Virus record (IMG/VR): IMGVR_UViG_3300031688_000113
Location: 1-26,484 of that record
Length of the DNA: 26,484 bases
Strand: one strand, 5' to 3'
DNA from: a virus
A program made the translations under genes and the position numbers. The notes under the pieces are model-generated. The model was not told the origin of the DNA and ran no database searches. It saw nothing but the letters and a program-made list of their open reading frames with translations. This document shows positions 5,040 to 26,450 of the stretch, in pieces (position 1 is the first letter of the stretch; every line of letters starts with the position of its first letter).

Positions 5040-6260
5040 ATGGCAGAAAAAGAAAAGCCGCAAGAGGTAGTCGAAGAACTACCAACTGCACCAGCAGCAA
5101 TCAAGGATAGTGAAACTATAACTGATGCTAAAATCGAAACCTCACCAAGTGAAGGCGGAGATATGAAAATGAAAGAAAAACCTAAAAGACCTAAGCAACT
5201 TGTTAATCAAGATGTCGATGACGTTATAAAGGTTGATCTTTCTAAAAAAGAAGAAGTTACTCCTGTAGAAGAAACAGAGGTAGAAGATACACCTGTTGTA
5301 GAACAAGAGGTTAAAGAAGAAGAACAAACTTCAGTAGTTGAAGAGATTACAGACGAAGAGGTCGAAGAGCAGACAGAAAATCTACAAGAAAAAGTAGAAG
5401 AAGCTGTACAAGAGTCTCAAGACACAGCTGAACCATTACCAGAAAACATACAAAAAGTTGTAGACTTTATGAATGAAACTGGTGGAAGCTTAGAAGAGTA
5501 TGTTAGATTAAATCAAGATTACTCTAAACAAGATGACAAATCTCTACTTAAAGAATACTACAAGCAAACAAAACCTCATTTAAATGATGATGAAATTGGT
5601 TTCTTAATGGAAGACAATTTTGAGTTTGATGAAGAAATTGATGAGGATAGAGACATTAAAAGAAAAAAATTAGCGCTTAAAGAGCAAGTTGCCAGTGCTA
5701 AAAGCCACCTAGACGGGCTAAAGTCTAAATATTACGAAGAAATTAAAGCTGGAAGCAGGTTAGCGCCTGAGCAAAAGAAAGCAATTGATTTTTTCAACCG
5801 TTACAATCAAGAAGTTGAAACTTCACAAAAAGTAGTCAAGGAACAACAAACAAAATTTCAAGAAAAAACCAATCAGGTTTTTAACGACAAATTCAAAGGT
5901 TTTGAATATAACATCGGAGAAAAGAAATTTAGGTTTAATGTAAAGGACAGTGACAAGATTAAAAATGACCAAAGCGATATTAATAATTTCATCAAGAAGT
6001 TTCTTGATAAAGATGAAGTAATGTCAGATGCTAAAGGTTATCACAAATCTTTATTTACTGCTAATAATCCTGACGCTGTAGCGAAACATTTTTACGAACA
6101 AGGTAAAGCCGATGCTATCAAGGATAGTATAGCTAAATCAAAAAACATCAACATGGATCCTAGACAAGCACAGTCAAATGTGATTCCTACATCCGGTTGG
6201 TCCGTAAAAGCGGTTCCTGGTGATTCAGTTTCTGACTTTAAGATTAAGATTAGAAAATAA
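5040..6260 (+). CDS. Putative head scaffolding protein
   Basis: A 406-residue protein between portal and major capsid protein, the usual scaffold position. Residues 1-135 are low-complexity and very acidic, rich in Glu, Val and Pro (runs such as VEEQTENLQEKVEE), hence likely disordered. Residues 136-205 contain a compact acidic helical region (QKVVDFMNETGGSLEEYV, then DDEIGFLMEDNFEFDEEIDED). Residues 206-290 are a charged predicted coiled coil, and the C-terminus is basic (FKIKIRK), as in scaffolds whose basic tail docks on the capsid protein. It would chaperone capsid assembly and leave before or during packaging. No protease motif is evident. The leader is A/T-only with no ribosome-binding site. 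Confidence 0.72.
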   Translation: MAEKEKPQEVVEELPTAPAAIKDSETITDAKIETSPSEGGDMKMKEKPKRPKQLVNQDVDDVIKVDLSKKEEVTPVEETEVEDTPVVEQEVKEEEQTSVVEEITDEEVEEQTENLQEKVEEAVQESQDTAEPLPENIQKVVDFMNETGGSLEEYVRLNQDYSKQDDKSLLKEYYKQTKPHLNDDEIGFLMEDNFEFDEEIDEDRDIKRKKLALKEQVASAKSHLDGLKSKYYEEIKAGSRLAPEQKKAIDFFNRYNQEVETSQKVVKEQQTKFQEKTNQVFNDKFKGFEYNIGEKKFRFNVKDSDKIKNDQSDINNFIKKFLDKDEVMSDAKGYHKSLFTANNPDAVAKHFYEQGKADAIKDSIAKSKNINMDPRQAQSNVIPTSGWSVKAVPGDSVSDFKIKIRK

Positions 6261-6288: not shown

Positions 6289-7710
6289 ATGGCATTAGCT
6301 GGAACAGGCGCGGAGTTATCGCACTTAACGCCGAGACCGAATAAAACTTTATTTGGTTCAAATTATTTATCAATCGCTGGCAACGACTTCAATTTCACAA
6401 AACAATTCCTACCGGAAGTTTATGAAAAAGAAGTTGAAAGATACGGAAACAGAACTATTTCTGGTTTCTTATCTATGGTCGGTGCTGAAATGCCTATGGC
6501 TTCTGACGAGGTCGTATGGTCTGAACAAGGTAGAATCCACGTAGCTTACGACGATGTCGTAGGTACTGACGTTTCTGCAAACTTACTAACATTTTCTGCT
6601 GCTCACTTACTAAGCATCGGTGATACTATCATCGTTAGCAAAGCTGGAGCAACGTTAAAATGTTACGTATCTGCTGTACCTAGTACAACTACTATAACTG
6701 CACAACCTTATACTGCTGCTGATATTTCAGGTATCGGTGCTGATGGTGTTGCTGCTGTAAAAGTATTTGTTTATGGTTCAGAATATGCAAAAGGATCAAG
6801 CAACGCTGGTAACAAAAAAGATGCAACATTTACTTCTTTCTCGAATAAGCCAATTATTCTAAGAGACAAGTATAGTGTAAATGGATCTGACACTGCTCAA
6901 ATTGGGTGGGTTGAAGTTGCTACTGAAGCTGGTACTTCTGGATACTTATGGTACTTAAAATCTGAGCACGAAGCAAGAATTAGATTTGAAGATCAATTAG
7001 AAATGTCTATGATTGAAGCAGAGAAAAAAGCAGCATCATCTGCTATCTCAGCTGCAGGAGTTTCTGGATCTGAAGGTCTTTTTGCTGCTATTAGCTCAAG
7101 AGGATTAGTATACAACAACGCTGATTTTGACGATGGCGTTTCTTCTGGAGTTCATGTAGGTTTAGCTGAATTTGATTCTATACTACAAGAACTTGACAAG
7201 CAAGGAGCTATCGAGGAAAACATGATGTTCTTAGACAGAGCTACAGCTCTTTCAATTGACAATATGTTAGCTGCTCAAAATTCTTACGGATCTGGTGGTA
7301 CTTCTTACGGAGTATTCAACAATTCTGAAGAAATGGCGCTTAACCTAGGTTTTTCTGGTTTCAGACGTGGATCTTACGATTTCTACAAAACTGACTGGAA
7401 ATACTTAAATGATTCAACTACTAGAGGACTTGTAGCTGATATTGAAGGTGTTATCGTTCCTGCTGGAACTTCAACAGTTTACGATCAGATTATGGGTAAA
7501 AATATCCAAAGACCATTCTTACACGTTAGATACAGAGCTTCTGAAGCTGACGACAGAAGAATGAAATCATGGATTACTGGTTCAGTTGGAGGTAACTATA
7601 CAAGTGATGAAGATGCAATGAACGTACATTTCTTATCTGAGAGATGTTTATGTGTTCAAGCAGCTAACAACTTCGTATTGTTAAAATCTACTGATGGTAT
7701 CCAAGGATAA
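6289..7710 (+). CDS. Major capsid protein
   Basis: A 473-residue protein following the scaffold, with no signal peptide or coiled coil. The N-terminal arm (residues 1-80) includes KQFLPEVYEKEVERYGNRT. Residues about 90-165 form a beta-rich insertion (LLSIGDTIIVSKAGATLK, then TTITAQPYTAADISG) resembling surface insertions seen in some marine phage capsid proteins. The C-terminal part (WITGSVGGNYTSDEDAMNVHFLSERCLCVQAANNF, split here: WITGSVGG, FLSERCLCV, AANNF) is the conserved-looking end. An HK97 fold is inferred from context. Codon choice differs from its neighbours: many C-ending codons for Phe, Asn, Asp and Tyr, as expected for the most highly expressed virion gene. A strong hairpin terminator follows. 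Confidence 0.85.
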   Translation: MALAGTGAELSHLTPRPNKTLFGSNYLSIAGNDFNFTKQFLPEVYEKEVERYGNRTISGFLSMVGAEMPMASDEVVWSEQGRIHVAYDDVVGTDVSANLLTFSAAHLLSIGDTIIVSKAGATLKCYVSAVPSTTTITAQPYTAADISGIGADGVAAVKVFVYGSEYAKGSSNAGNKKDATFTSFSNKPIILRDKYSVNGSDTAQIGWVEVATEAGTSGYLWYLKSEHEARIRFEDQLEMSMIEAEKKAASSAISAAGVSGSEGLFAAISSRGLVYNNADFDDGVSSGVHVGLAEFDSILQELDKQGAIEENMMFLDRATALSIDNMLAAQNSYGSGGTSYGVFNNSEEMALNLGFSGFRRGSYDFYKTDWKYLNDSTTRGLVADIEGVIVPAGTSTVYDQIMGKNIQRPFLHVRYRASEADDRRMKSWITGSVGGNYTSDEDAMNVHFLSERCLCVQAANNFVLLKSTDGIQG

Positions 7711-10474: not shown

Positions 10475-13400
10475 ATGCCGAAGTTAAAAAATCACTTCCG
10501 TGCGGGTAAAATGCAAAAAGACCTGGACGAAAGATTAGTACAGGAAGGTGAATACAGAGATGCTTTGAATATACAAGTTGCTAGCTCTGAAGGATCTGAC
10601 GTAGGTGCTATTGAAAATTTACTGGGTAATTCTTCTCGTATTAACAAAACATTTAACAAAGATACTGGAGCTTATACTGTTTTTAATGAGTCTACCGCTT
10701 CTTTAGATGTATTTGGAATACCAGATACAGGTACAGGAGCTGTTAAAACATTAGGATCTATAAAGTATGATAAAACAGAGTGTATATACTGGTTTATAAC
10801 ATCAGGTACTATAGATGCTATTATAGAGTACAATCAATCTACAGACGTTGTATCGCCTATTGTAGTTGACAAAGGTAATATTTTAAAGTTTTCTAAAAAT
10901 CATTTAATAACTGGTATAAATATAATAGAAGGTTTATTATTTTTTACAGATGACAATAGTGAGCCTAAGTGTTTAGATATAAAAGAATTTAGAGAAGCTT
11001 CAGCTTTATCAACTAGTGGATTTACAAATCATACTCAAATATATGGTAGGGGATTTGTAGAGCATGATATTACTGTTATAAAAAAATCACCATTAACTCC
11101 ACCAACCGTAACAAAAAGTGACTCAAGAAGAGAGGGAGTTGGTACAGGTATAAGTCCTTTAACAACATTAAAAAAATTCACTCAAAATATTGCAGGCACA
11201 GATCCAGTAGAGTTTGAAAGTATACCAAGTGGAACATCAACAACACTATCTTTTGGAGCTGCACCAAACTATCAAGTTGGTGATATATTATCATTAAAAA
11301 ATGAATATTCTAGTGGTAATAATGATTTAGAAATATTTGAAGTTACTGTTCAAATAACAGCTGGAGCTAGTCAGTTTTCCACTGTTACTGTAGATATATT
11401 GTCTAACCCAGAAAATATGCCTAACGAGTCATTGGTGTGGGAGGTTTTATTACAAGAAGATGAGGCTATGTTTCAGTACAAGTTTCCAAGGTTTGCTTAT
11501 AGATGGAAATACTTAAACGGTTCTTACTCTACGTTTTCACCATTTACACAAGCTGTATTTTTACCAAGTAAGTTTAAATATTTATCAGCAGATGGTTATA
11601 ATTTAGGTATGACTAATAACGTAAGAAAATTAACTATTGGCGGATTTGAAACTCCACCAGCTAACGTAAAAGAAATAGAGGTACTATATAAAGAAAGCAA
11701 CAGTAACTTAGTTTACAGCGTTGATGAAGTTCCTTTAGGTTCAGGTCAAACATTAGAGATAGAATCTGAATTAATACACAAAGTAATAGAGGCTAATCAA
11801 ATATTAAGACCTTATGACAATGTGCCGTTAAAAGCTAAGGCACAGGAAATAATAGGTAATAGGCTTTTATATGCCAATTATTTACAAAACTTTAACGTAA
11901 ATGACAACTTAGGTACAAACTTCTTTGTATCAAGTGTATTAAATCCAAGCCCACAAACACCTGAAGAATCTATAAAGTCAATAAGAAACTATCAACTAGG
12001 CGTGGTTTGGAAAGATGTTTATGGTAGAGAAACACCAGTATTTACTAGTAAAGAATCTACATTGTTACTAGGAGGTGTTGACTCTGACAAAATAAATAAG
12101 CTAAAAGCTTCAATAACTACTACAGCTCCGGCTTTTGCAACACATTATAAATACTTTATAAAAGAAACTGCAAACGAATATTACAATTTAGCTTTAGATA
12201 GATTTTATCTAGCTGAAGATGGTAATGTTTGGTTAAGTTTTCCTTCATCAGAAAGAAATAAAGTAGATGAAGAAACATACTTATATTTAAAGAAACAACA
12301 CGACAATGATTATACTGTAAAAGAAGTTCCTAAATATAAAGTTTTAAGTATATCAAATAAAGCTCCTGATTTTATAGCTGAAGTCGCTAAGACAATAGCT
12401 AATGCTGATGTTGAAGCTACGTCTTCTGCTAATCCAGGTTCAGATGTAACTACATTTGAATTTACTGGACCAGGTGGAACTAGTGGTGATCAAGATGCTA
12501 ACCCAAGTTTTTACACTGCTTTTAAAGCTCAAAATTTTATTAGCATAGTAAAAGGTGGAAGTTCTACTAGAGATTATGAGATAAAATCTGGTGGACCAAC
12601 TGGTGAAGATAATAAATTTAGAGTATCTATAACGCTTCCAATGGAAGAAGCTTTCTTAGATGCAATAACAAATGATTCTGCTTCAACAAGAGCTTTTGAA
12701 ATACTTGTTAAAGAAAAAGTAATTGAAAGAAAACCTGAATTTGAAGGTAGATTTTTTGTTAAAATAAATAGAGATGCAACTTTTAAAACTAATATAATAG
12801 ATGCTTTTGGTACCGTTGAAGCTAGCTATGGAATAGTACAAAGCTCAGATGTTCCTAATGTTGTTCCCGTAGGTAGTGGCGCAGCGATTGGTGGTGGTGA
12901 TAGTGCACAAGGTTTTGGTTGGAAAGATCACAGGGCTGTTCCCTCTATAATGAAAGGTAGACCTGTAGCTCAGTCGGATGAATTTAGTTTAGTTTGGGCT
13001 GGATATGGTGGTGGTGGAGCTAGTCCAATAAATACTGGAATACCAACTCATGAAATTATTGATAAATACCTACAAGGTGGTGAAAATCAAACTGTTAGAT
13101 TTTACGATGCTAGCGGTAATAAAAGTGAGGTTTACACGGTTAAAGAAAGTGCAATACATTGGGATAGAAGAGGTATAACCGGTTTGTTTGGTGGACAAAG
13201 AACTAATGCTAGTAACGCTAGAAAATGGGTTGAAATTGTAATGACAAAAAACTTTCAATCTGGATTTGGTACTGTTACTGGTGTAGAAATAGTAGAAGAG
13301 CTTACGTCTAGTGGTAATGATATATTATCATCAACAAACCCAGCTGTATTCGAAACTGAACCAAAAGAACAAGCTGAACTAGATATATACTATGAAGCTT

Positions 13401-14557
13401 CTCAAGCATTTCCTATCGCTGAAGCCGCTACAATAAAAACATTAAGTTGGTTTAACTGTTACTCTTTTGGTAATGGGGTTGAATCAGATAGAGTAAGAGA
13501 CGATTTTAACGCTGTGAGAATAGGTAAAGGTGTTAAAGTATCTGCGGTGTTAGATGAACCTTATGCTGAAGAAAGAAAAGGTAATGGTTTTATATTCTCT
13601 CAAATATTTAACTCTACATCTGGAGTGAATAGATTAAATCAATTTATTTTAGCTCTACCTATAACTAAAGATATTAACCCAGCTTATGGATCAATACAAA
13701 AGTTACATGCTAGAGATACTGATCTTATAACATTGTGTGAAGATAAGGTATTAAAGGTTTTAGCCAACAAAGATGCTTTATTTAATGCTGACGGTAACTC
13801 TAATATAACTTCTAACAAAGCGGTGTTAGGACAAACCATACCTTATATAGGTGAATATGGTATATCAAAAAACCCAGAAAGCTACGCATCATATGGTTTT
13901 AGATCTTTCTTTACAGATAAAAACAGAGGTGTAGTACTAAGATTATCACGTAATGGATTAGATGAAATATCTAGCAAAGGTATGAGTGATTATTTTTCAG
14001 ATAAGTTAAGTACGGAAAATACTATTATAGGTAGTTATGATGATTACTCTAATTGTTATAATATATCTTTTAGCGATGAAACAGTTGGTTACAAACAAAA
14101 TTTAGATGGCTTTCCATCAAGAAAATCTTTTGTGCCTGAATCTGCTTTGTCTTTAAATAATAAATACTATACTTTTAAAGGTAGTCAAATATGGTCGCAT
14201 GATAATGAAGTAAGGAATAATTTCTATGGTTTACAATATAAATCAACAGTTAAACTAATATTTAACAAAGCACCTTCTAGTATTAAAAACTTTAAAACAA
14301 TAGCATACGAAGGTGATAGTGGTTGGACAGTGCCTTTAATAACAACAGATCAACAAACTGGTAAAGTACCTACGTTTAAAGCAAAAGAAGGTTTATACTA
14401 TAACTTTATAAAAGGTAATGCTAGTACTTGGAACGGTACATCTGGTACTTTAAATTCAAAAACATTTCCTACTCAAGGTATAGATATACTTGGTTCTGCA
14501 TCAGGTGATTTAACACCAACAACGTTTACTTTAACGGTAAAAGAAAATAACGACTAA
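10475..14557 (+). CDS. Large tail nozzle/muzzle-like protein
   Basis: A 1360-residue protein beginning MPKLKNHFRAGKMQKD, with the motif NIQVASSEGSDVGAIENLLG at about residues 32-51. I associate this opening with beta-propeller nozzle proteins of short-tailed phages (T7 gp12 and P22 gp10 type, and the muzzle of crAss-like phages). Beta-rich repeats follow (IKYDKTECIYWFITSGT, LLFFTDDNSEPKCLDIKEF). The C-terminal third has RLNQFILALPITKDINPAYG and LHARDTDLITLCEDKVLKVL, again propeller-like. At 1360 residues it is much longer than T7 gp12 (about 800), with a probable insertion in the middle (about residues 640-960). It would close the tail channel and open on contact with the host. It is spaced three bases from the previous stop and one base from the next start. 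Confidence 0.68.
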   Translation: MPKLKNHFRAGKMQKDLDERLVQEGEYRDALNIQVASSEGSDVGAIENLLGNSSRINKTFNKDTGAYTVFNESTASLDVFGIPDTGTGAVKTLGSIKYDKTECIYWFITSGTIDAIIEYNQSTDVVSPIVVDKGNILKFSKNHLITGINIIEGLLFFTDDNSEPKCLDIKEFREASALSTSGFTNHTQIYGRGFVEHDITVIKKSPLTPPTVTKSDSRREGVGTGISPLTTLKKFTQNIAGTDPVEFESIPSGTSTTLSFGAAPNYQVGDILSLKNEYSSGNNDLEIFEVTVQITAGASQFSTVTVDILSNPENMPNESLVWEVLLQEDEAMFQYKFPRFAYRWKYLNGSYSTFSPFTQAVFLPSKFKYLSADGYNLGMTNNVRKLTIGGFETPPANVKEIEVLYKESNSNLVYSVDEVPLGSGQTLEIESELIHKVIEANQILRPYDNVPLKAKAQEIIGNRLLYANYLQNFNVNDNLGTNFFVSSVLNPSPQTPEESIKSIRNYQLGVVWKDVYGRETPVFTSKESTLLLGGVDSDKINKLKASITTTAPAFATHYKYFIKETANEYYNLALDRFYLAEDGNVWLSFPSSERNKVDEETYLYLKKQHDNDYTVKEVPKYKVLSISNKAPDFIAEVAKTIANADVEATSSANPGSDVTTFEFTGPGGTSGDQDANPSFYTAFKAQNFISIVKGGSSTRDYEIKSGGPTGEDNKFRVSITLPMEEAFLDAITNDSASTRAFEILVKEKVIERKPEFEGRFFVKINRDATFKTNIIDAFGTVEASYGIVQSSDVPNVVPVGSGAAIGGGDSAQGFGWKDHRAVPSIMKGRPVAQSDEFSLVWAGYGGGGASPINTGIPTHEIIDKYLQGGENQTVRFYDASGNKSEVYTVKESAIHWDRRGITGLFGGQRTNASNARKWVEIVMTKNFQSGFGTVTGVEIVEELTSSGNDILSSTNPAVFETEPKEQAELDIYYEASQAFPIAEAATIKTLSWFNCYSFGNGVESDRVRDDFNAVRIGKGVKVSAVLDEPYAEERKGNGFIFSQIFNSTSGVNRLNQFILALPITKDINPAYGSIQKLHARDTDLITLCEDKVLKVLANKDALFNADGNSNITSNKAVLGQTIPYIGEYGISKNPESYASYGFRSFFTDKNRGVVLRLSRNGLDEISSKGMSDYFSDKLSTENTIIGSYDDYSNCYNISFSDETVGYKQNLDGFPSRKSFVPESALSLNNKYYTFKGSQIWSHDNEVRNNFYGLQYKSTVKLIFNKAPSSIKNFKTIAYEGDSGWTVPLITTDQQTGKVPTFKAKEGLYYNFIKGNASTWNGTSGTLNSKTFPTQGIDILGSASGDLTPTTFTLTVKENND

Positions 14558-14558
14558 T

Positions 14559-16826
14559 ATGGCATTAACTAATTGTACAATAACAGAAAGTAGTTTAATA
14601 GGTAAAGTAGGTGGTGCCGCAATAGGTACTGATAACATACAGTTGATCATAACACCTAAACCTGGTTACGTAGTTTCTGCTGCTGCTTTTACAAACAATA
14701 CCGGTAGTTTATCTGGTATATCAAGTATATCATTTTCTAACAGTGGTACGGCTAATACATTAGGTAATACTGTTTTAGTTGCTGTAGATTTAACAGATAC
14801 ATTTGTAATGCCATCTGCAGACACAACACTAACTATAGATGTTGATGGTGCCGCAATATTAAGACAATACGCTTTAACTGGTAGTTTTACAACAGAAGAA
14901 ACCAATACAACAACTACCTCTGGAACATCAAACTATAGCGCTGGTGGTAATTTTGGAACACAAGTTATTGTTTTTAATAAAACATTTACAGCTAATAGTG
15001 GTTTTAGTTTTTCTGAGCATAATTTAAAAGGAGCTCTTATAAATATAATATCTCAAGACAATAACGATAGAACTTTAATAACTTCTAGTAATACTTTAGA
15101 TAGTGAAGGAAGAATAATAGCATGCACTTTTACTGTTAAGTATACTTTTCCTAATGAAGATATATCTGGACAAGAAATTTACTTTGTAGCTAAAGCTGAA
15201 CAATATTTTGTTCCTGTTGTTGAAATAATTGCGTATAACATAATAACAACAAATATAGATCCAGTAGGTGTTACTAGAAGAATGAAAGTTTATGGTACAC
15301 CAACAGCTGTTTTTAGTTTAGCTGTAACGAACGAGGATTCAACGTCAATACATTCAATATCAAATCTTACAATAGGTGCTACTGGCAAACAAGAGTTTGA
15401 TATAACTTTTCCAACAGTAACAGATAGTGATCATTACGACTTTATTTTAACAGGTAGTAATGTTTCAACTAACTTTGGTGGATCAGGTGAACAAGCTCAC
15501 TCTTTTAGAATTAGACAAGATCTACCTATAACAGTACAAGCTAGATTATATTATTCAGGTACCGCACCTTCTGGTGTTTCAATATCAGCTAACAAATCAA
15601 TAACATTACAACCAAACTCTATTAATTTTGACTTTGATAACGGAGAGAACTCCATGTCAAATACATTTACAATAACTAGAGCAGCTGGTTTACAAATAGA
15701 CAATGCTACTGGTAACGTGTTACAATTTACAAACATGTCATCTAATGGTGGAACTATATTTGGTTCAAACGAAACTACTCCACAATTTTTTAATAGTTTA
15801 ATTTTTACAGCTACTAACGCATCTACAATTTCTGCTCAACTGTTAGGTATGGTTGAAGTAAGTGGTGGTGATGATGTAATTTCTTCATTTGATTTACAGT
15901 CTTATATATCAGCTGGTAATACTGCTCCTGTAGCTAACACAGTAAGTGTTTCTTCTAATAAAGGTGGTGGTGTTCTTGTAACGTTAAATGCTACGGATGC
16001 TGATAGTGATAGTTTAACTTACACTATAGTATCTGTACCAAGTCAAGGTTCTTTATTTACAGACGCTAGTAAAGGAACTGCTGTAAGTGCTGGAACTGCT
16101 TTATCTGCAGCCACAGTATATTATGAGCATAATAATTCAAGTAATTTTACAGACGCATTTACTTATAAAGCTAATGATGGTACAATTGATAGTAACACAG
16201 CTACTGTTAATGCTGCTATAGGTGTTTCACCCGGCGCTTCAATTACTACTACTGGATCAGCTGGTGTTTATTTAATACCTATTGTTTTAGGTACAGGTGC
16301 TGGAACATTTAAAGCTCACTGTAACGCTCAAACTGTTCCTGATAGATTCGAGATACTATACTCTAACCTTGACAACGCTGCTGGTAATACACTAGCTAAC
16401 ATGGATGTTCAAGCAGATTCATTATTTGTTGGTGATGGTATAAGTAGTACAGCTCCAGCAAGACAACAATTCGGCCCAAGTGGTATGGGTTTATTTACAT
16501 ACAATGGATCTAGCTTTGACACTACTAGCTCAAACTCTCAAACAGTAACTATTACAAATGATGATGTTGCTAGTAATGCAACTGGAAACAGAAGTAATGC
16601 TTCACCTAATGGAGCTTCTTTTGGTAGTGGTAATCAATCTGGTGTTCAAAACTTAGTATTCACATCAGCATCAGATACCACTGGATCATCAAACTTACCT
16701 CACAGTGATGGTAATATATGCTTAACATTTACAAAAGCCGCTACAACAAACACTTTCTTAGCTTACTTAAGAATAACTGGAGTTGGTGGTACGTCTTGGA
16801 ATCTATTTCAAACTGAATTCGTTTAA
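14559..16826 (+). CDS. Tail fibre or adhesin with Ig/cadherin-like domains
   Basis: A 755-residue Ser/Thr/Asn/Gly-rich, almost entirely beta protein. Residues about 1-110 form one beta-sandwich (LIITPKPGYVVSAAAFTN, ending TLTIDVDGA). Residues about 454-555 form a clear cadherin-like or CSPG-repeat module: NTAPVANTVSV, NATDADSDSLTYTIVSVPSQ, GSLFTD, TVYYEHN, FTYKANDG. Such modules bind carbohydrate or protein on cell surfaces, and their DADSDS loop is a usual calcium site. The C-terminal 200 residues (TFKAHCNAQTVPDRFEILY) look like another beta-sandwich, possibly the receptor-binding tip. It follows the nozzle gene by one base, so it is probably the host-recognition protein. No enzymatic motif is seen. 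Confidence 0.7.
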   Translation: MALTNCTITESSLIGKVGGAAIGTDNIQLIITPKPGYVVSAAAFTNNTGSLSGISSISFSNSGTANTLGNTVLVAVDLTDTFVMPSADTTLTIDVDGAAILRQYALTGSFTTEETNTTTTSGTSNYSAGGNFGTQVIVFNKTFTANSGFSFSEHNLKGALINIISQDNNDRTLITSSNTLDSEGRIIACTFTVKYTFPNEDISGQEIYFVAKAEQYFVPVVEIIAYNIITTNIDPVGVTRRMKVYGTPTAVFSLAVTNEDSTSIHSISNLTIGATGKQEFDITFPTVTDSDHYDFILTGSNVSTNFGGSGEQAHSFRIRQDLPITVQARLYYSGTAPSGVSISANKSITLQPNSINFDFDNGENSMSNTFTITRAAGLQIDNATGNVLQFTNMSSNGGTIFGSNETTPQFFNSLIFTATNASTISAQLLGMVEVSGGDDVISSFDLQSYISAGNTAPVANTVSVSSNKGGGVLVTLNATDADSDSLTYTIVSVPSQGSLFTDASKGTAVSAGTALSAATVYYEHNNSSNFTDAFTYKANDGTIDSNTATVNAAIGVSPGASITTTGSAGVYLIPIVLGTGAGTFKAHCNAQTVPDRFEILYSNLDNAAGNTLANMDVQADSLFVGDGISSTAPARQQFGPSGMGLFTYNGSSFDTTSSNSQTVTITNDDVASNATGNRSNASPNGASFGSGNQSGVQNLVFTSASDTTGSSNLPHSDGNICLTFTKAATTNTFLAYLRITGVGGTSWNLFQTEFV

Positions 16827-19112: not shown

Positions 19113-22100
19113 ATGGAAGAACTTTACAGACAACTATACGAAAAATATAGTCCAGGTCTAAGTGAAGAAGAGTTGAATACTAAACTTCAATTCGCTTCTG
19201 AACAAGACCCAGACGAGTGGGTAAATGCGTTTTATCAGAAGTACACAGGCTCAGGTCCGAGCGAAGAACAATCAAACTACATATCGAATTACATTAATCA
19301 ACCTAAGCAACCCTCAAATAGAGAGAAGATAATGGCTAAGGAAGAGGAGCCTGGTTTTTGGGATAAGTATTCTCCATTTGCTAAAGCTGACAAGCTTAAG
19401 TCTATGAACGACGCTTTGTTGGATATTGACGGCGAGTATAACCAAGAGCAGATTAATAATATCATTAAAAACAATAATAATCCCCAGCCTATTTCTGATT
19501 TCACTAAAGATTTCAATAAAGAGATAGAGGACAGAAGAGTTCAATTTAAAAAAGATAATAATGGTGAAGAACCAAATGCTTTTGAAGATACTAAAATGGC
19601 TTTTGGAGCTTTTAAAAATCACCCAAAGCAGGCGCTTTTAACAGCTTACGAGTCTTTAGTACAAAACACAGTTTCATTGTACTCTGGAGATGCTAGGGCC
19701 GTTGGTATAAGTACAGCTATAGCTGGTGCAAATGAATTTAGAAAAGGTAAAAAAGGAAAAATAAGTACGAAAGCCGTGGGATTTTTAGGGTCTATGTATT
19801 CTTTAGCACAAGGACAAGTTGATGCTGCTTATGCTTTAGACGAGTTAATAATGGAAGAGCTAGGAGAGGGTTACACAGGTAAAGACCTACAAGGCTTAAT
19901 GGAGAACAAGGAGCTGTTTAATAAAATGAGAAGAGCATCTTTAATAAAAGGTGGTACAACTGCTGTTGTAGATAAGTTAGCTATGAAGCTAACAGTCAAG
20001 GCTGGACCACTCGCTAATAGAGCAATACAACAAACTATTGGTAAAACAGCCCCTGGTGTTGTTTCAAAAACACTCGGAATTGCGGGAGGAGCAGTCGCAG
20101 CTGTAGGTGTCGAAGGTACCGCTGGTGCTTTTGCTGAGGCTGTCGGATCTGTTGCTAAAGATACTATTGGTATGGGTATGACAATGGATGAGGCTTTAGC
20201 GGCTTTAGATGGTGTTGAATTAGCTGGTGAATTTATAGGCGAAGGAGTTGTTGGTGGACCTGTTGCCGCTATACAAGCAGCAAAAGACATTGGGCCATCT
20301 AAATATACACTAAATGGTAAAGAGCATGGTCAAGCTGATTTCATGGAGTTAACAGGTGGTATGACAGATGAAGAGATTGCTCAAGTAGATTTTGATGTAA
20401 CAAATAACAGCGCCATACTAGATCCATTAACAAAAAGAAGAGCTGATGGTATTATAAAAAATAATCTAGATACTAGAGTAACGGATCAAGGTGATAGAGA
20501 TACTTTGTTTAAATTAGAATCAGAGTTACAAGAGTTAGAATCAAAGGGTTCAGTAACACAATCTCAAAAAAATGAAATAAGTAATAAAAAATCTGAAATA
20601 AAAGATATAACTAATACTTATTTTGAAAAAAATAAAGGTTTAGAAGAAAATAAACAAACCACAAACCAACAAGTATTAAAAAAAGCAGTTGGTTCAGATA
20701 TAGCTGAAGCTATGGGTGGTAATCAGGAAGTGCTTCAATACGATGAGGTTGTAGAAAGATTTGGAGAAAAAGCTGGTAGGCAAGCTGGTTTTATAGATGC
20801 TGAAACTGGTAAAGTTATTGTTAATAAAACAGTGGCAATTGACGCTGGAGGAAATCTTAATGTTGCTGGTCATGAATTTATACATCAAGCATTAAACGCT
20901 AGGTTAAATGGAAAAGACAAACAAGCTAGTGAAGCTGCACAAAAAGCTATAGAAAGCTTTAAACAAAAAATGGCTAAAGACAATGCAGATATTCACGCGA
21001 TGGTTTTAGATAATTTCAAACAACTAGACTACAGTAACGAAGAAGTTTCTGGTGTAAATGCAGATGAGTATTTAGCTCAACTATCAGATTTAATGTCTAA
21101 AGACAAAAGTATAGCTAGAAAAATACAAGGCAAAGGTAGAATAGAATCTTTTATAGATAGTGTTAAAGATCTTATATCAGATACTTTAGGTATACCAAAA
21201 GCAGAACTTAACTTTAAAACGGCAGATGACGTTACAGACTTCATGATAGCTCATAATAAAGCGTTTCAAACAGGTAAAACAGATGCTAGGTTTAAAAAAT
21301 TTACTAGTAAAAAGATTGCGTCGACAGGTAAGAGAAAATTTAGTAAAGTAAACCTAGACGGAGAGGGTACTTTAGAAAACAAGATAAATGCTTTAGCTGG
21401 TGATGCAAAAACAAAAGCTGAATTTCAAGGACCAAATGGTAATTTTGGTAAAGTTTATGAAGCTATAGTGTTTGGTGATTTAGATAGATTAATAACAAAC
21501 GTTAACTCAACACAAAGAGAATTAGTTAGAGAAGAACTAGCTATAAGACTAGCTGGTAGACCAAAAACAGCAAAAAAGATAGCAGAACTAGAAGCAAAAG
21601 GTATAGATCCATTAGCTGGTTATGATCCTGCTAAAGCAAAATTATTTAAATGGTTTGGTAGTAATATAGCTCAATCAAAGATGGTTGCTAATAAAGCTTT
21701 ATTTAAAGATAGCGAAAACAAAGGACCTAGCTTAGATGAAGCTAAGAAAAATGCTGAAGGTGATTCTTTTGCTACTCAAATAGAAGATACTACAGAATTA
21801 TTACCTGACGAAATACTAGACAAAAAACTTGCTGACGAACGAAAAGCTAAACAAGCTCCTGTAAAAGTAAAAGAAACATTGAGAAGAAAAATGGGCTTTG
21901 AAAGAAATGGCGATGTTCACAATAAAATCAAAAAAGCTGTTTCATTGAATATTCTTAGAAAAATGAATATTAAAAGAAAACCAGTTAAAGCTGAAAAATT
22001 AGCTGGAGTAGAGGTTGATAAAGATGGTAAGATTTCTGAAACTCTTGATATTACAGATTTAAGATGGCAAAAAGAAATAAGTAGAGCATTAGGTTTAGAC

Positions 22101-25100
22101 TTACAAGAAACTATGTATGATGTTATGGGTAGAAGCACCGTAGATTATACTAACTTTTTAGATAAGTTTATAGTAGAAGCTTTTGAAATGATGGATCAAA
22201 ACTTAATAAACAATAGATACAAAGATCTTGTTGTTAAAGTTGTTGATAGACAAGGTTCAACACAATCATCATTAGATAAGAAAGTTAAAAGCAAAACAGC
22301 TGGTAATGCTTTGTTTGAAAAATTACCTAAAACTAAAGAAGAATTAGTAGAATACTTTTTAAAGCGTGGTAGAAAAGAAAGTTTAGCTCAAGTGTTAGGC
22401 ACAGAGTTTGCTCACGATGCAACAATGGAAGTTTTAGCTGAACCAGAAATGATGAGTAAAGCTGAACAAGTACTTGTTAATAAAAACAACTTAAAAAATC
22501 AAGCTTTAACATCTCTTATAGCTAAACAAATAGGTAGAGACTCAAAATTAAAATTTAGTAAAGTTTTAGATTTAGATCAAAAGGCTGAATTTGTTGAAAA
22601 AAGCCAACCGTTTATAAACTTGATTAAAGGTTTTCCAGTAAACAGAAAAAACATAATAAACGCACTAGCTGTTCAGTTTCCTAATTGGGATGCTAAAACA
22701 TTAAATAGCTTTGCTGGAGAAATAATTAATCCAATAAGTAGATATTTAGATCCAAAACTTAAAAATAAAGGTATAAAAAATAAAAACATAGATCCTTCAA
22801 CTTTTATTTTTGAAAGTTTAAATTTAAAAATAAATAAACAAAACGATAACATAAATAAAATAACTGGAAATAAAGAATCTTTTAGAGATTTGTTCTTTAA
22901 TGATGATAAGCAAGCTAATGTTAAAGAAAATCTTAAAAACTACTTTTTAGACTCTATGAGTAAAGAGGTAATTATAGATGGTAAAAAAACTAAAGTGCCA
23001 ATAACTAATGACAAAGAGGTGATAAAGGTTCTTCAAGGTTTAATGCTTCATAAATCTCACAACACTGTTGGTGGTAAAAACTTTAAAAAAAGATACCAGT
23101 CTTATAGTAGCGCTAAAGATTTTTACGACAATACATTTGCTTTTATACCAAATGTCACTGTAGTAGGTACTAAAACAAAACAAGGAATGTCTTACGCAAT
23201 ACATTATAAAGGTGTTAAGGTTAATTTTCCTCCAGCTGTATCACAATCAACTAAACTAGCGGTAAAAGGTAAAAGAGTTAATAAAGCTAAAGCATGGTGG
23301 GTAGAAAACTATAATGACTATAAAGAAAGTGCAAAAAGAAACTTTGATGAAGTTAATAGGTATTTAGCTTACGTAGCTAAAATAGAAGATACTAGTGTTA
23401 AAGCTATGATGATAATGTCAATGAAGCAAGGTATGGGTTCTATGCTGAAGTCTGCTGCTCGTGTTGAATATCATTATGAAAGTAATTACAAAGGTGAACT
23501 GATGTTTGAACACATGGTACCTACTGAAAAAGCCTTGTTTGATTTATTAAGCTTTCACTCAGGTAATAAAAAATATACATTAAAACAAATACAAGACCAA
23601 TACGTTGTTGCTATTATTCCGAAAACAATGGACAACAATATAAACGTTATATTTAATCAAGATAGATTATCTAGTTTTGATTACATAACTGACGACGCTA
23701 GTTTACTATATTATAATCCTGCTACGTTTGGTTACACAAACATGTACGCTATGAAATCTATTAGTGGCGAAGGAGAAGTTATAGGCGAGCAATGGTCTAA
23801 TTTTAAAGGAAAAATAAACAGTAAAAAAAATCAACAAGCTTTAAATAGACTTAATAAGATACAAGATATAAGAAACAACAACTATAAGTTTTCTAAAACT
23901 CCTGATAAGGGTATGAGCATATTTGATTTTGATGACACACTAGCTCAATCAAACAGTATGGTTGGTGTTAAAATGCCTGATGGTAAGAAAAGAAAAATAA
24001 ATGCTACAGAGTTTGCTATTGAATCAGCTGACTTAGAAGCTGCTGGAGCTACTTTTGATTTTAGTGAGTTTAATAAAGTAATAGATGGTAAGAAAGGACC
24101 TTTCTTTGATTTAGCTCAACAAATAAATAGTAAGTTTGGTAGTAAAGAAATATATGTATTAACAGCAAGACCACAAGAAGCTTCTTATGCAATACATGCT
24201 TTTCTAAAAGGTATGGGATTAAATATACCTTTAGAAAACATAACTGGATTAGAAGATGGTAAAGCATCTGCAAAAGCTGATTGGGTTATAGCTAAAGTAG
24301 CTGATGGTTACAACAATATTTTATTTGCTGATGATGCAATAAAAAATGTTAAGGCTGTAAAAGAAGTATTAGAAATAGCAGAAGTAAAAAATGACGTAAG
24401 ACAAGCTAAGCTTAAGTTTAGTAAAACACTAGATGAAAACTTTAACACTATACTAGAAAGGAAGTCTGGTATTAATAAGAACGAAGAATACAGTAAAGCC
24501 GCTGGTAAAGCTGCTGGACTAGGTAAAGGTAAGTATAAGTTTTGGATGCCACCATCAGCTGAAGACTTTATGGGTTTAATGTATAACATTTTACCCTCTG
24601 GCGAAGCTGGTAATAAATCTCTTAAGTTTTTAACACAAGCTTTGATAGATCCATACTGGGCAGGTACAAGATCACTTAACGCTGCAAAGCAAGCTTTAGG
24701 TAATGATTTTAGTGCTTTAAAGAAAAGGTTTCCTAAAGCGTTTAAAAGCTTATTAAAAGATGTTGGTCACAAACAATATTCAAATGAGCAAGCTATAAGA
24801 GTTTATCTTTGGAACAAGGCTGGATTTGAAATACCAGGTATGTCTAAGGTAGATATAGAGAAGTTATCTGATATAGTAAGAAACAATAGTAACATGAGAG
24901 GTTTTGCTGATTTAGTCGGCGCTACAACGAAGTTAAAAGAAGGTTATATAAAACCTGGTCAAGACTGGGTTAGTGGCACTATAGCTTATGATTACTTTAG
25001 TATAGCTCAAAAAACAAATAGAAAAAAGTTCTTAGCTAGCTGGATAGAAAGAAAAAATGAAATATTCTCTGAGAAAAACATGAATAAACTCGAGGCTATA

Positions 25101-26450
25101 TATGGTGAAGATTATAGAAGTGCCTTAGAAGATATACTATGGAGAATGGAAAACGGTACGAATAGAACTACCGGTAAAAACAAACTAGTTAATAGTTGGA
25201 TGAATTGGGTTAACAACTCTGTTGGTGCTATAATGTTCTTTAACAGTAGATCAGCTATACTTCAAACAATATCTATGATTAACTTCATAAACTGGTCTGA
25301 TAATAATCCACTAAAAGCTGGTATGGCTTTTGCTAATCAACCACAATTTTGGTCTGATTTTAGTATGATATTTAATTCAGACATGTTAAAACAAAGAAGA
25401 TCTGGATTACAAAGTGATGTTAATGAAGCTGAAATAGCACAAGCTGTTGCTGGTAAAACAGATAAAGCTTCTGCTGCTATATCTTACTTATTGAAAAAAG
25501 GTTTCTTACCCACACAGATGGCAGATAGTTTTGCAATATCAATGGGTGGTGCTAGTTTCTTTAGAAATAGATTCAATACATATAAGAGTCAAGGTATGAC
25601 AGAGGCTCAAGCTAAAGATAAAGCATTTGGTGATTTTGCTAAAACATCAGAAGAATCACAACAATCTGCTGATCCTGCTTTAATATCACAACAACAGGCT
25701 GGACCGCTTGGTAGACTGATACTTGCGTTTCAAAACACACCAATGCAGTACGCTCGATTAATTAAAAAAGCTGTTCTAGACATTAAAAATGGTCGTGGAG
25801 ATGTAAAGACTAATATATCCAAGATTATATATTATGGTGTAATTCAAAACATAATATTCTCAACATTACAATCAGGTTTATTTGCACTAGCTTTTGACGA
25901 TGAAGAAGATGAGAAGCTAACACAGAAATTAGAAGATAAAAAGCTAAGAGCTTTAAACACATCTATTGATAGTTTATTAAGAGGTGGTGGTGTATATGGT
26001 GCTGGTATATCTACTATTAAAAATATGATACTTCAATTTAATGCTCAAAACGATAAGGATTATAGAGCAGACCATGCTTACACGATGATTGAAGCTATAA
26101 ACTTATCTCCTCCTATTGGTAGTAAGGTTAGAAAAATTTATTCAGCAACACAAACATATAAATTCAATAAAAAAGTTATACCTGAAATGGGTATGAGTAT
26201 TGATAACCCAGCTTTTTTAGCTATAGCTAATGTGGTATCAGCTTCTACTAATATTCCTTTAGATAGAGCTATAATGAAAGTTAATAACGTTATGGCTTCT
26301 TTAGATTCACAGAACAAAGCTTGGCAAAGAGTAGCTACATTTTTAGGCTGGAACACCTGGGATGTTGGTGTTAAGAACGAAGCTGTTGAAAAGGTTAAGG
26401 CTAGACTAAAGAAAACAAGTAATAAAAGAAAAACTAAATACAGAAAATAA
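19113..26450 (+). CDS. Giant multidomain virion protein (peptidase, HAD phosphatase, modular)
   Basis: A 2445-residue protein, the largest gene here. Order: an N-terminal helical region with YEKYSPGLSEEEL; a Gly/Ala hydrophobic stretch at about 314-347, possibly membrane-active; a zincin-type metallopeptidase with HEFIH at 587-591 and a candidate third ligand E652 (DEYLAQL); a stretch weakly like sigma-70 at about 836-892; a domain containing FEHMVP at 1465-1470; a HAD phosphatase at about 1598-1760; and a 670-residue C-terminal virion domain with a hydrophobic helix at about 2239-2261 and a very basic end. Four KFSK motifs lie at 742, 1147, 1592 and 1768. The layout matches phage polyvalent or ejection proteins, injected with the DNA. 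I see no RNA polymerase DxDGD motif. Base use near the 5' end is slightly more GC-rich. Whether the chain is cleaved is unknown. Confidence 0.85.
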   Translation: MEELYRQLYEKYSPGLSEEELNTKLQFASEQDPDEWVNAFYQKYTGSGPSEEQSNYISNYINQPKQPSNREKIMAKEEEPGFWDKYSPFAKADKLKSMNDALLDIDGEYNQEQINNIIKNNNNPQPISDFTKDFNKEIEDRRVQFKKDNNGEEPNAFEDTKMAFGAFKNHPKQALLTAYESLVQNTVSLYSGDARAVGISTAIAGANEFRKGKKGKISTKAVGFLGSMYSLAQGQVDAAYALDELIMEELGEGYTGKDLQGLMENKELFNKMRRASLIKGGTTAVVDKLAMKLTVKAGPLANRAIQQTIGKTAPGVVSKTLGIAGGAVAAVGVEGTAGAFAEAVGSVAKDTIGMGMTMDEALAALDGVELAGEFIGEGVVGGPVAAIQAAKDIGPSKYTLNGKEHGQADFMELTGGMTDEEIAQVDFDVTNNSAILDPLTKRRADGIIKNNLDTRVTDQGDRDTLFKLESELQELESKGSVTQSQKNEISNKKSEIKDITNTYFEKNKGLEENKQTTNQQVLKKAVGSDIAEAMGGNQEVLQYDEVVERFGEKAGRQAGFIDAETGKVIVNKTVAIDAGGNLNVAGHEFIHQALNARLNGKDKQASEAAQKAIESFKQKMAKDNADIHAMVLDNFKQLDYSNEEVSGVNADEYLAQLSDLMSKDKSIARKIQGKGRIESFIDSVKDLISDTLGIPKAELNFKTADDVTDFMIAHNKAFQTGKTDARFKKFTSKKIASTGKRKFSKVNLDGEGTLENKINALAGDAKTKAEFQGPNGNFGKVYEAIVFGDLDRLITNVNSTQRELVREELAIRLAGRPKTAKKIAELEAKGIDPLAGYDPAKAKLFKWFGSNIAQSKMVANKALFKDSENKGPSLDEAKKNAEGDSFATQIEDTTELLPDEILDKKLADERKAKQAPVKVKETLRRKMGFERNGDVHNKIKKAVSLNILRKMNIKRKPVKAEKLAGVEVDKDGKISETLDITDLRWQKEISRALGLDLQETMYDVMGRSTVDYTNFLDKFIVEAFEMMDQNLINNRYKDLVVKVVDRQGSTQSSLDKKVKSKTAGNALFEKLPKTKEELVEYFLKRGRKESLAQVLGTEFAHDATMEVLAEPEMMSKAEQVLVNKNNLKNQALTSLIAKQIGRDSKLKFSKVLDLDQKAEFVEKSQPFINLIKGFPVNRKNIINALAVQFPNWDAKTLNSFAGEIINPISRYLDPKLKNKGIKNKNIDPSTFIFESLNLKINKQNDNINKITGNKESFRDLFFNDDKQANVKENLKNYFLDSMSKEVIIDGKKTKVPITNDKEVIKVLQGLMLHKSHNTVGGKNFKKRYQSYSSAKDFYDNTFAFIPNVTVVGTKTKQGMSYAIHYKGVKVNFPPAVSQSTKLAVKGKRVNKAKAWWVENYNDYKESAKRNFDEVNRYLAYVAKIEDTSVKAMMIMSMKQGMGSMLKSAARVEYHYESNYKGELMFEHMVPTEKALFDLLSFHSGNKKYTLKQIQDQYVVAIIPKTMDNNINVIFNQDRLSSFDYITDDASLLYYNPATFGYTNMYAMKSISGEGEVIGEQWSNFKGKINSKKNQQALNRLNKIQDIRNNNYKFSKTPDKGMSIFDFDDTLAQSNSMVGVKMPDGKKRKINATEFAIESADLEAAGATFDFSEFNKVIDGKKGPFFDLAQQINSKFGSKEIYVLTARPQEASYAIHAFLKGMGLNIPLENITGLEDGKASAKADWVIAKVADGYNNILFADDAIKNVKAVKEVLEIAEVKNDVRQAKLKFSKTLDENFNTILERKSGINKNEEYSKAAGKAAGLGKGKYKFWMPPSAEDFMGLMYNILPSGEAGNKSLKFLTQALIDPYWAGTRSLNAAKQALGNDFSALKKRFPKAFKSLLKDVGHKQYSNEQAIRVYLWNKAGFEIPGMSKVDIEKLSDIVRNNSNMRGFADLVGATTKLKEGYIKPGQDWVSGTIAYDYFSIAQKTNRKKFLASWIERKNEIFSEKNMNKLEAIYGEDYRSALEDILWRMENGTNRTTGKNKLVNSWMNWVNNSVGAIMFFNSRSAILQTISMINFINWSDNNPLKAGMAFANQPQFWSDFSMIFNSDMLKQRRSGLQSDVNEAEIAQAVAGKTDKASAAISYLLKKGFLPTQMADSFAISMGGASFFRNRFNTYKSQGMTEAQAKDKAFGDFAKTSEESQQSADPALISQQQAGPLGRLILAFQNTPMQYARLIKKAVLDIKNGRGDVKTNISKIIYYGVIQNIIFSTLQSGLFALAFDDEEDEKLTQKLEDKKLRALNTSIDSLLRGGGVYGAGISTIKNMILQFNAQNDKDYRADHAYTMIEAINLSPPIGSKVRKIYSATQTYKFNKKVIPEMGMSIDNPAFLAIANVVSASTNIPLDRAIMKVNNVMASLDSQNKAWQRVATFLGWNTWDVGVKNEAVEKVKARLKKTSNKRKTKYRK
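20670..21317 (+). other. Metallopeptidase domain inside the giant protein
   Basis: Residues about 520-735. The catalytic helix is VAGHEFIHQALNARL with H587, E588 and H591. A downstream helix, VNADEYLAQLSDLM, offers E652 as the gluzincin-type third zinc ligand. Before it, a strand pair reads GFIDAETGKVIVNKTVA, the usual beta edge of such domains. The order of elements is what I know from zincin domains in phage polyvalent proteins. It ends just before the first KFSK motif. It could process this protein, other virion proteins or a host target. Confidence 0.68.
21336..21347 (+). repeat. KFSK motif 1 (residues 742-745)
   Basis: Reads RKFSKVNLD, just after the peptidase domain within a basic, probably unstructured linker. 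First of four copies in this protein. Confidence 0.7.
22551..22562 (+). repeat. KFSK motif 2 (residues 1147-1150)
   Basis: Reads LKFSKVLDLD, at the end of the segment that includes the sigma-like stretch and before the domain holding the EHMVP motif. Confidence 0.7.
23886..23897 (+). repeat. KFSK motif 3 (residues 1592-1595)
   Basis: Reads YKFSKTPD, ten residues before the HAD nucleophile D1605. It follows an Asn-rich linker. Confidence 0.7.
23904..24392 (+). other. HAD-superfamily phosphatase domain inside the giant protein
   Basis: Residues about 1598-1760. Motif I is FDFDDTLA, with D1605 as nucleophile, D1607 as acid/base and T1609. Motif II is VLTARP with T1684. A Lys-containing helix (GKASAKADWVIAK) supplies motif III, and motif IV is ILFADDAIKN with D1740 and D1741. 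All four motifs are present and correctly ordered, so the domain is probably active. LTARP resembles acid phosphatases and polynucleotide 3'-phosphatases. The substrate could be nucleotides or nucleic acid ends; this is not shown by sequence. Confidence 0.82.
24414..24425 (+). repeat. KFSK motif 4 (residues 1768-1771)
   Basis: Reads LKFSKTLDENF, immediately after the HAD domain and before the long C-terminal virion domain. Confidence 0.7.
24426..26447 (+). other. C-terminal virion domain of the giant protein
   Basis: Residues about 1772-2445, mostly helical. Elements include FWMPPSAEDFMGLMYNILPS, QAIRVYLWNKAGFEIPGMS, FFNSRSAILQTISMINFINW at about 2042-2061 and LGRLILAFQNTPMQYARLIK at about 2198-2217. 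A hydrophobic segment at about 2239-2261 could cross or lie on a membrane, followed by an acidic patch (DDEEDEK). It resembles C-terminal domains of large polyvalent phage proteins that I know as the LPD38 type (memory, uncertain). Probably the part that anchors the protein in the virion and acts in ejection. Confidence 0.5.

Follow-up and report, generated by a model that had tools for sequence, protein, structure and literature searches.

Repeated KFSK motifs at module borders of a giant phage protein change in concert and may be processing sites

What does a four-residue motif do when it returns at four module borders of one giant phage protein? The question arises from the stretch analysed here, a 26.5-kb virus record (IMG/VR record IMGVR_UViG_3300031688_000113, positions 1 to 26,484; hereafter the window). 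The last gene in its cassette for TerL, portal, major capsid protein and muzzle is an open reading frame on the plus strand (19113..26450) that encodes a giant protein of 2445 amino acids, which resembles polyvalent proteins and is probably virion cargo. A sequence-only reading of the window had noticed the KFSK motifs and proposed that they are either protease sites of a polyprotein or a recombination or linker tag for swapping modules. At a probability of roughly 0.6, we favor the view that they are processing sites of a polyprotein-like virion cargo, most likely cut by the zincin-like peptidase embedded in the same chain.

The four KFSK copies were found exactly as reported, at nucleotides 21336, 22551, 23886 and 24414 (residues 742, 1147, 1592 and 1768). 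They read KFSKVNLD (seam 1, 21336..21347), KFSKVLD (seam 2, 22551..22562), KFSKTPD (seam 3, 23886..23897) and KFSKTLD (seam 4, 24414..24425), the last three matching KFSK[VT]xD. Ahead of them lie an N-terminal region (residues 1-499, 19113..20609) and the peptidase region (20610..21317) with its HEFIH motif at nucleotides 20871-20885 (residues 587-591) and a third-ligand Glu at 21066-21068 (residue 652). Seam 1 follows 155 residues past the HExxH motif and is succeeded by module B (residues 746-1146, 21348..22550), seam 2, and module C (residues 1151-1591, 22563..23885), which has no Pfam match above cut-off. Directly 5' of the HAD phosphatase-like domain (FDFDDTLA, 23898..24413) lies seam 3, and seam 4, in full KFSKTLDENFN, precedes a conserved helical C-terminal module (C-module; residues 1772-2445, 24426..26447). 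All these features are encoded on the plus strand.

The earlier estimate that chance would yield about 0.1 KFSK copies was borne out, as 0.094 are expected with the real composition of the protein (K 11.2%, F 4.8%, S 6.4%), resulting in a Poisson probability of 3e-6 for at least four copies. None of the 11 anagrams of KFSK occurs in the giant protein. Since the motif was picked after looking, a fairer figure for the window protein comes from shuffling, which corrects for motif choice: any 4-mer reached four or more copies in 21 of 1000 shuffles, and on its own this protein therefore makes a suggestive case that falls short of proof. One more KFSK in the window, at nucleotide 10886 in the muzzle-like protein, looks like a chance occurrence.

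To go beyond one protein, relatives were gathered with the whole protein and with a C-module profile, and 79 giants of at least 900 amino acids were kept after dereplication at 80%. In this set KFSK occurs 37 times against 5.7 expected, with each anagram found 2-7 times, and QFSK 31 times against 2.65 expected. Reading the linkers revealed that the seam spelling differs by homologue and that a homologue's own spelling, its dialect, recurs at non-homologous seams. The window clade uses KFSK, L045, L076, L089 and L028 use QFSK, L024 [KR]FSE and L049 KFKR; further dialects are MFSRD (L053), KASKK (L097), KLSENP (L055) and KNSKD (L042). Clear cases of repetition are L049 (KFKR/KFKR/KYKR/KFKR/KFKR), L053 (MFSR four times), L089 (QFSK five times) and L024 ([KR]FSE six times). 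F-S-K-V-N-L of seam 1 is invariant among six homologues with identities as low as 47%, and so is K-F-S-K-V of seam 2 among six. When the 5-mer with the strongest repetition was sought blindly, the seam motif emerged in the window, L049, L089 and L053; in L090 and the cultured relatives it was missed, and the score alone is not clearly above that of shuffles.

The recurrence of dialects was quantified by scoring the 6-mer of the seam that precedes the C-module against the upstream stretch of its own protein (from 100 residues past HExxH to the C-module) and against the upstream stretches of the others, using a double-centred BLOSUM62 maximum. The 6-mer fitted its own upstream stretch better than those of the others, with a z of 10.4 (n=56, below 75% identity) and none of 2000 permutations as high. 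At stricter identity the concordance persisted, with z 7.6 below 65% (n=30, 0/2000 permutations) and about 5.9 below 58% (n=22). As controls, 12 offset 6-mers and 5 anagrams at each of two cut-offs (24 + 10) did not exceed an absolute z of 2.2. The anchor seam was chosen with a generic [KQR][FY]S[KRE] preference, which shapes the 6-mers that enter the test, but this preference alone cannot produce better matches to the own than to the others' upstream stretch. Altogether, 88 own-dialect upstream sites were counted, whereas permutations averaged 41.4 and never exceeded 65.

A simple table of K/R versus Q at the C-module seam and upstream points in the same direction (23/3/1/18, Fisher 1.3e-8; below 65% identity 10/0/1/7, Fisher 2.5e-4), although it is only illustrative because sites inside one protein are not independent. 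On the C-module tree, where about nine K/Q switches occurred, 8 independent pairs gave 6-7 concordant and no discordant cases (p 0.016-0.03). No dialect concordance was detected in the neighboring genes, the part before the peptidase or the C-module; the signal is limited to the region between the embedded HExxH peptidase and the C-terminal module.

Are the seams indeed borders between modules? Among the relatives, varied middle modules accompany the peptidase, the HAD domain and the C-module, and homologous segments break at the seams: the ends of high-scoring segment pairs are 2.3-fold enriched within 20 amino acids of a seam (0.0376 versus 0.0164; a level that 500 random sets never reached). 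In many relatives the seam motif lies 12-43 residues ahead of the HAD active-site motif, and the first-seam motif, where present, 131-170 residues past HExxH. Two AlphaFold models, built from 6-9 sequences and of low confidence (predicted local distance difference test, pLDDT, 42.5 and 55.4), place the seams either in coil of low pLDDT or where a low-pLDDT helix begins. Both the homology break-points and these models thus support the proposed location between domains. About 20 residues past seam 4, a second [FY]S element was seen (KFSE, RFSK, RFSD or EYSK; EEYSKA at residues 1788-1793 in the window, and also in homologues such as L006 and L010). It belongs to a conserved stretch leading into the C-module and could serve as another cut site or be part of the fold.

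In 34 diverse homologues, which apart from the near-identical L017 share 9-25% identity with the window, HExxH is invariant and the downstream Glu at least 90% conserved. HExxH was found in 75 of the 79 giants, the remaining four being incomplete contigs, and the seam motif is absent from two cultured relatives that have no HExxH. Besides this peptidase no other protease was recognized in the window.

Several explanations could account for such a pattern. Chance, or descent of a few linkers from a common ancestor, draws on the 2.1% of shuffles that yield some 4-mer four times in the window protein, yet all family-level tests contradict it, including the permutations and the phylogenetically independent contrasts, and we consider it the least probable of all. 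Hardly more credible is a tag acting in the DNA, for recombination or as a linker, through which modules would be swapped. The coincidence of the motifs with homology break-points would suit it; however, different codons are used for the motif inside one gene, with AGY and TCN serine codons mixed and the other motif codons varying too, while the dialects shift in concert as amino acids. The mixed serine codons exclude a DNA tag or gene conversion and place the selection at the protein level. Hence, of the two original proposals, the tag fails at the DNA level, and the protease sites have gained strong, though indirect, support from the concerted motif, its confinement between peptidase and C-module and the invariant HExxH.

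At the protein level, the main rival to cleavage is docking, in which copies of a short linear motif would let several cargo modules attach to a single partner that co-evolves (the portal, a chaperone, DNA or a different cargo protein) and nothing is cut. Concerted evolution requires a recognizer, not necessarily a protease, and the dialect does not follow overall peptidase similarity. The virion RNA polymerase of phage N4, a giant virion protein with an MPTase region that is ejected with the DNA, is packaged unprocessed according to Iyer et al. (2017; PMC5512222). On the other hand, the signal is limited to borders on the C-terminal side of the peptidase and ends where the last module starts, as expected of cut sites that release modules; the sole recognized enzyme in the window able to use the motif sits in the same chain; and the motif is missing from the two HExxH-less relatives. 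We regard docking as unlikely, but as the alternative to be taken most seriously. Less probable again is cutting in trans by another protease, whether of the phage (such as a prohead protease) or of the host (such as a flavobacterial enzyme). It would be compatible with a dialect unlinked to overall peptidase distance, and prohead proteases cleave packaged proteins at short motifs elsewhere (SPN3US gp245, A-x-E; PMC10052503). However, such an enzyme usually cuts scaffold and capsid proteins as well, and the same site in scaffold, capsid and other head proteins is not what we found, as the neighboring virion genes carry no matching dialect. Furthermore, a second protease is not recognizable within the window, and the coordinated dialect switches suit a phage-encoded enzyme better than one of the host.

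The analysis shows directly that the motif is repeated, that it sits at module borders, that it changes in concert at seams which are not homologous, and that it is restricted to the stretch past the peptidase; recognition of the seams by a co-evolving protein is very likely in our judgment. That the recognizer is a protease, and that it is the embedded one, we infer. In the processing that we favor, the embedded zincin (HExxH...E) is the most likely enzyme to cut the chain at the KFSK seams, which would yield an N-terminal ejection part that retains the peptidase, modules B and C, the HAD phosphatase-like domain and the C-module; the cuts might take place during head assembly or after ejection.

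A number of findings weigh against this processing. The sequence-only reading had named homologues without the motif at equivalent borders as evidence that would speak against it, and these exist in part: KFSK was not found at the HAD seam of the close homologues L002 and L004, and an own-dialect upstream site was detectable in 42 of 71 homologues, leaving about 40% without one at the threshold used. Three cultured relatives (elemoA gp21, Gundel_1 gp074 and ctfjg026) possess HExxH and no recognizable motif. When the distance between C-modules was controlled, dialect distance did not follow the distance between whole peptidase domains (partial Mantel r 0.03, p 0.29), and co-divergence of the dialect with the whole peptidase domain was dropped accordingly. 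None of the PDB zincins matched the family profile, the low confidence of the predicted structures counts on the same side, and so does the uncut N4 polymerase. Because the Mantel result and the three HExxH-bearing relatives without motif tell against it, we rate cleavage of the seams as likely, and cleavage by the embedded peptidase as only slightly favored. The wider picture of an ejected tailed-phage chain that cuts itself, whose lineage-specific four-residue code would free effector modules (HAD phosphatase-like and others) and drift in step everywhere, seems to us evenly poised.

How does the giant protein compare with known systems? For MPTase-containing polyvalent proteins, autoprocessing was proposed by Iyer et al. 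(2017; PMC5512222). The window protein shares their giant size and multidomain build, a zincin inside the chain, a variety of enzymatic modules and a presumed delivery alongside the DNA. It has several distinct domains, domain orders that vary among relatives, and an HExxH with a downstream Glu that is zincin-like by sequence. Neither the giant nor the members of the C-module alignment gave a Pfam match to LPD or MPTase-PolyVal above cut-off; as no curated LPD or MPTase model matches, formal Pfam membership in the polyvalent proteins is lacking, though the architecture is alike. The main text of PMC5512222 contains neither the strings KFSK and RFSR nor the word linker, and describes no concerted dialect. 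Our literature search found nothing linking KFSK with phages, and both the processing sites and their concerted evolution appear to be undescribed so far. A universal [KR][FY]S code in all polyvalent proteins was unsupported: six LPD38-type or related proteins contain [KR][FY]S 7 times and [KR]S[FY] 22 times, so the FS code belongs to the lineage of the window. In one gammaproteobacterial prophage LPD38 protein (L140, residues 3745-3984), RFSR, KYSR and MFSR flank an HExxxH peptidase, which may point to a comparable code in a different polyvalent lineage.

RNA-virus polyproteins contain their own protease, and the short sites repeated at their domain borders drift along with it. If confirmed, the window giant would work in the same way, but it is a virion protein of a dsDNA tailed phage and no homology is claimed. 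Measured against a self-processing polyprotein, it has a predicted in-chain protease and repeated, co-varying border sites, and lacks a site dialect that tracks the divergence of the whole protease. In the N4 virion RNA polymerase no seam motif is known to us. A closer precedent among phages is DdrB of P1, a large packaged MPTase-domain protein that is trimmed by proteolysis to 76 kDa ahead of packaging (cited in PMC5512222); one mature product is known for DdrB, whereas several seams and about five parts are predicted for the window giant. PhicrAss001, a podovirus of the muzzle type, stores the giant cargo proteins gp45, gp46, gp47, gp49 and gp50 for ejection (PMC10172136), and the window encodes a muzzle homologue; in contrast, that cargo is RNA-polymerase related and its proteolytic processing is unmentioned in the main text.

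The genome setting is that of a tailed phage, with tail genes also encoded. PHROG matching identified TerL (377-2581), portal (2585-5011) and the major capsid protein (6289-7710, matched as capsid protein), and a scaffold-like role of the protein at 5040-6260 was inferred from position and charged composition. A crAss-like muzzle (tail) protein is encoded at 10475..14557, like the preceding genes on the plus strand; its C-terminal domain (PF25729 crAss_MUZ_C, E 2.2e-11) extends the muzzle-type tail to the marine podovirus lineage of the window. The 755-aa protein at 14559-16826 contains cadherin-like or bacterial Ig domains (PF16184, PF17803, PF17963) and is probably a tail or adsorption protein. 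TerL and portal matched 87 phage records, nearly all from phages of Flavobacterium, Cellulophaga, Tenacibaculum and Maribacter, and the phage, a podovirus with a crAss-like muzzle, probably infects Bacteroidetes. The syntenic giants elemoA gp21 (Flavobacterium phage) and phi38:1 gp101 (Cellulophaga phage) are annotated as structural proteins, which is why we regard the window giant as a probable internal virion cargo. In blastp searches, the pre-peptidase part of homologous giants matched phi38:1 gp101 and phi13:2 gp127, virion proteins of cultured flavophages without HExxH; in phi38:1 the seam motif is absent as well.

As a whole, the giant protein has no Pfam match above cut-off, and sequence searches against the PDB yielded nothing useful. 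The HAD domain, related to the polynucleotide-kinase phosphatase family, was assigned by phrog_415 (E 2.6e-4 across residues 1584-1755), with weak fold matches to PDB HAD domains (E 0.1-0.5). A profile search retrieved at least 378 IMG/VR relatives of the C-module, and its fold and sequence neighbors include viral proteins annotated as PolyVal or LPD. In two relatives, weak matches to sigma-70 region 2 (Sigma70_r2, E 0.005-0.01, below cut-off) fall in the module that follows the first seam (L091:5845-6387 and L006:9630-10112); module B of the window gave no Sigma70_r2 match. Stretches of the 'FDPxK...' type occur in many giants, including residues about 836-870 of the window, and are possibly part of an ejected sigma-like module. 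Three giants (L096, L097 and L098) come from contigs binned into a Candidatus Woesearchaeota metagenome-assembled genome, probably a binning artefact involving phage contigs.

The 2017 autoprocessing proposal left the cut positions unknown; here, sites of predicted cleavage are named to the residue and backed by an evolutionary test. If the processing is real, phages would use a polyprotein strategy resembling that of RNA viruses. As the code drifts in step at all sites, cleavage sites in hundreds of uncultured marine phage cargo proteins could then be read from sequence, and the mature modules of many such proteins would become predictable. It would also open to study a zincin family that cuts specific sequences and has changed its specificity in nature many times.

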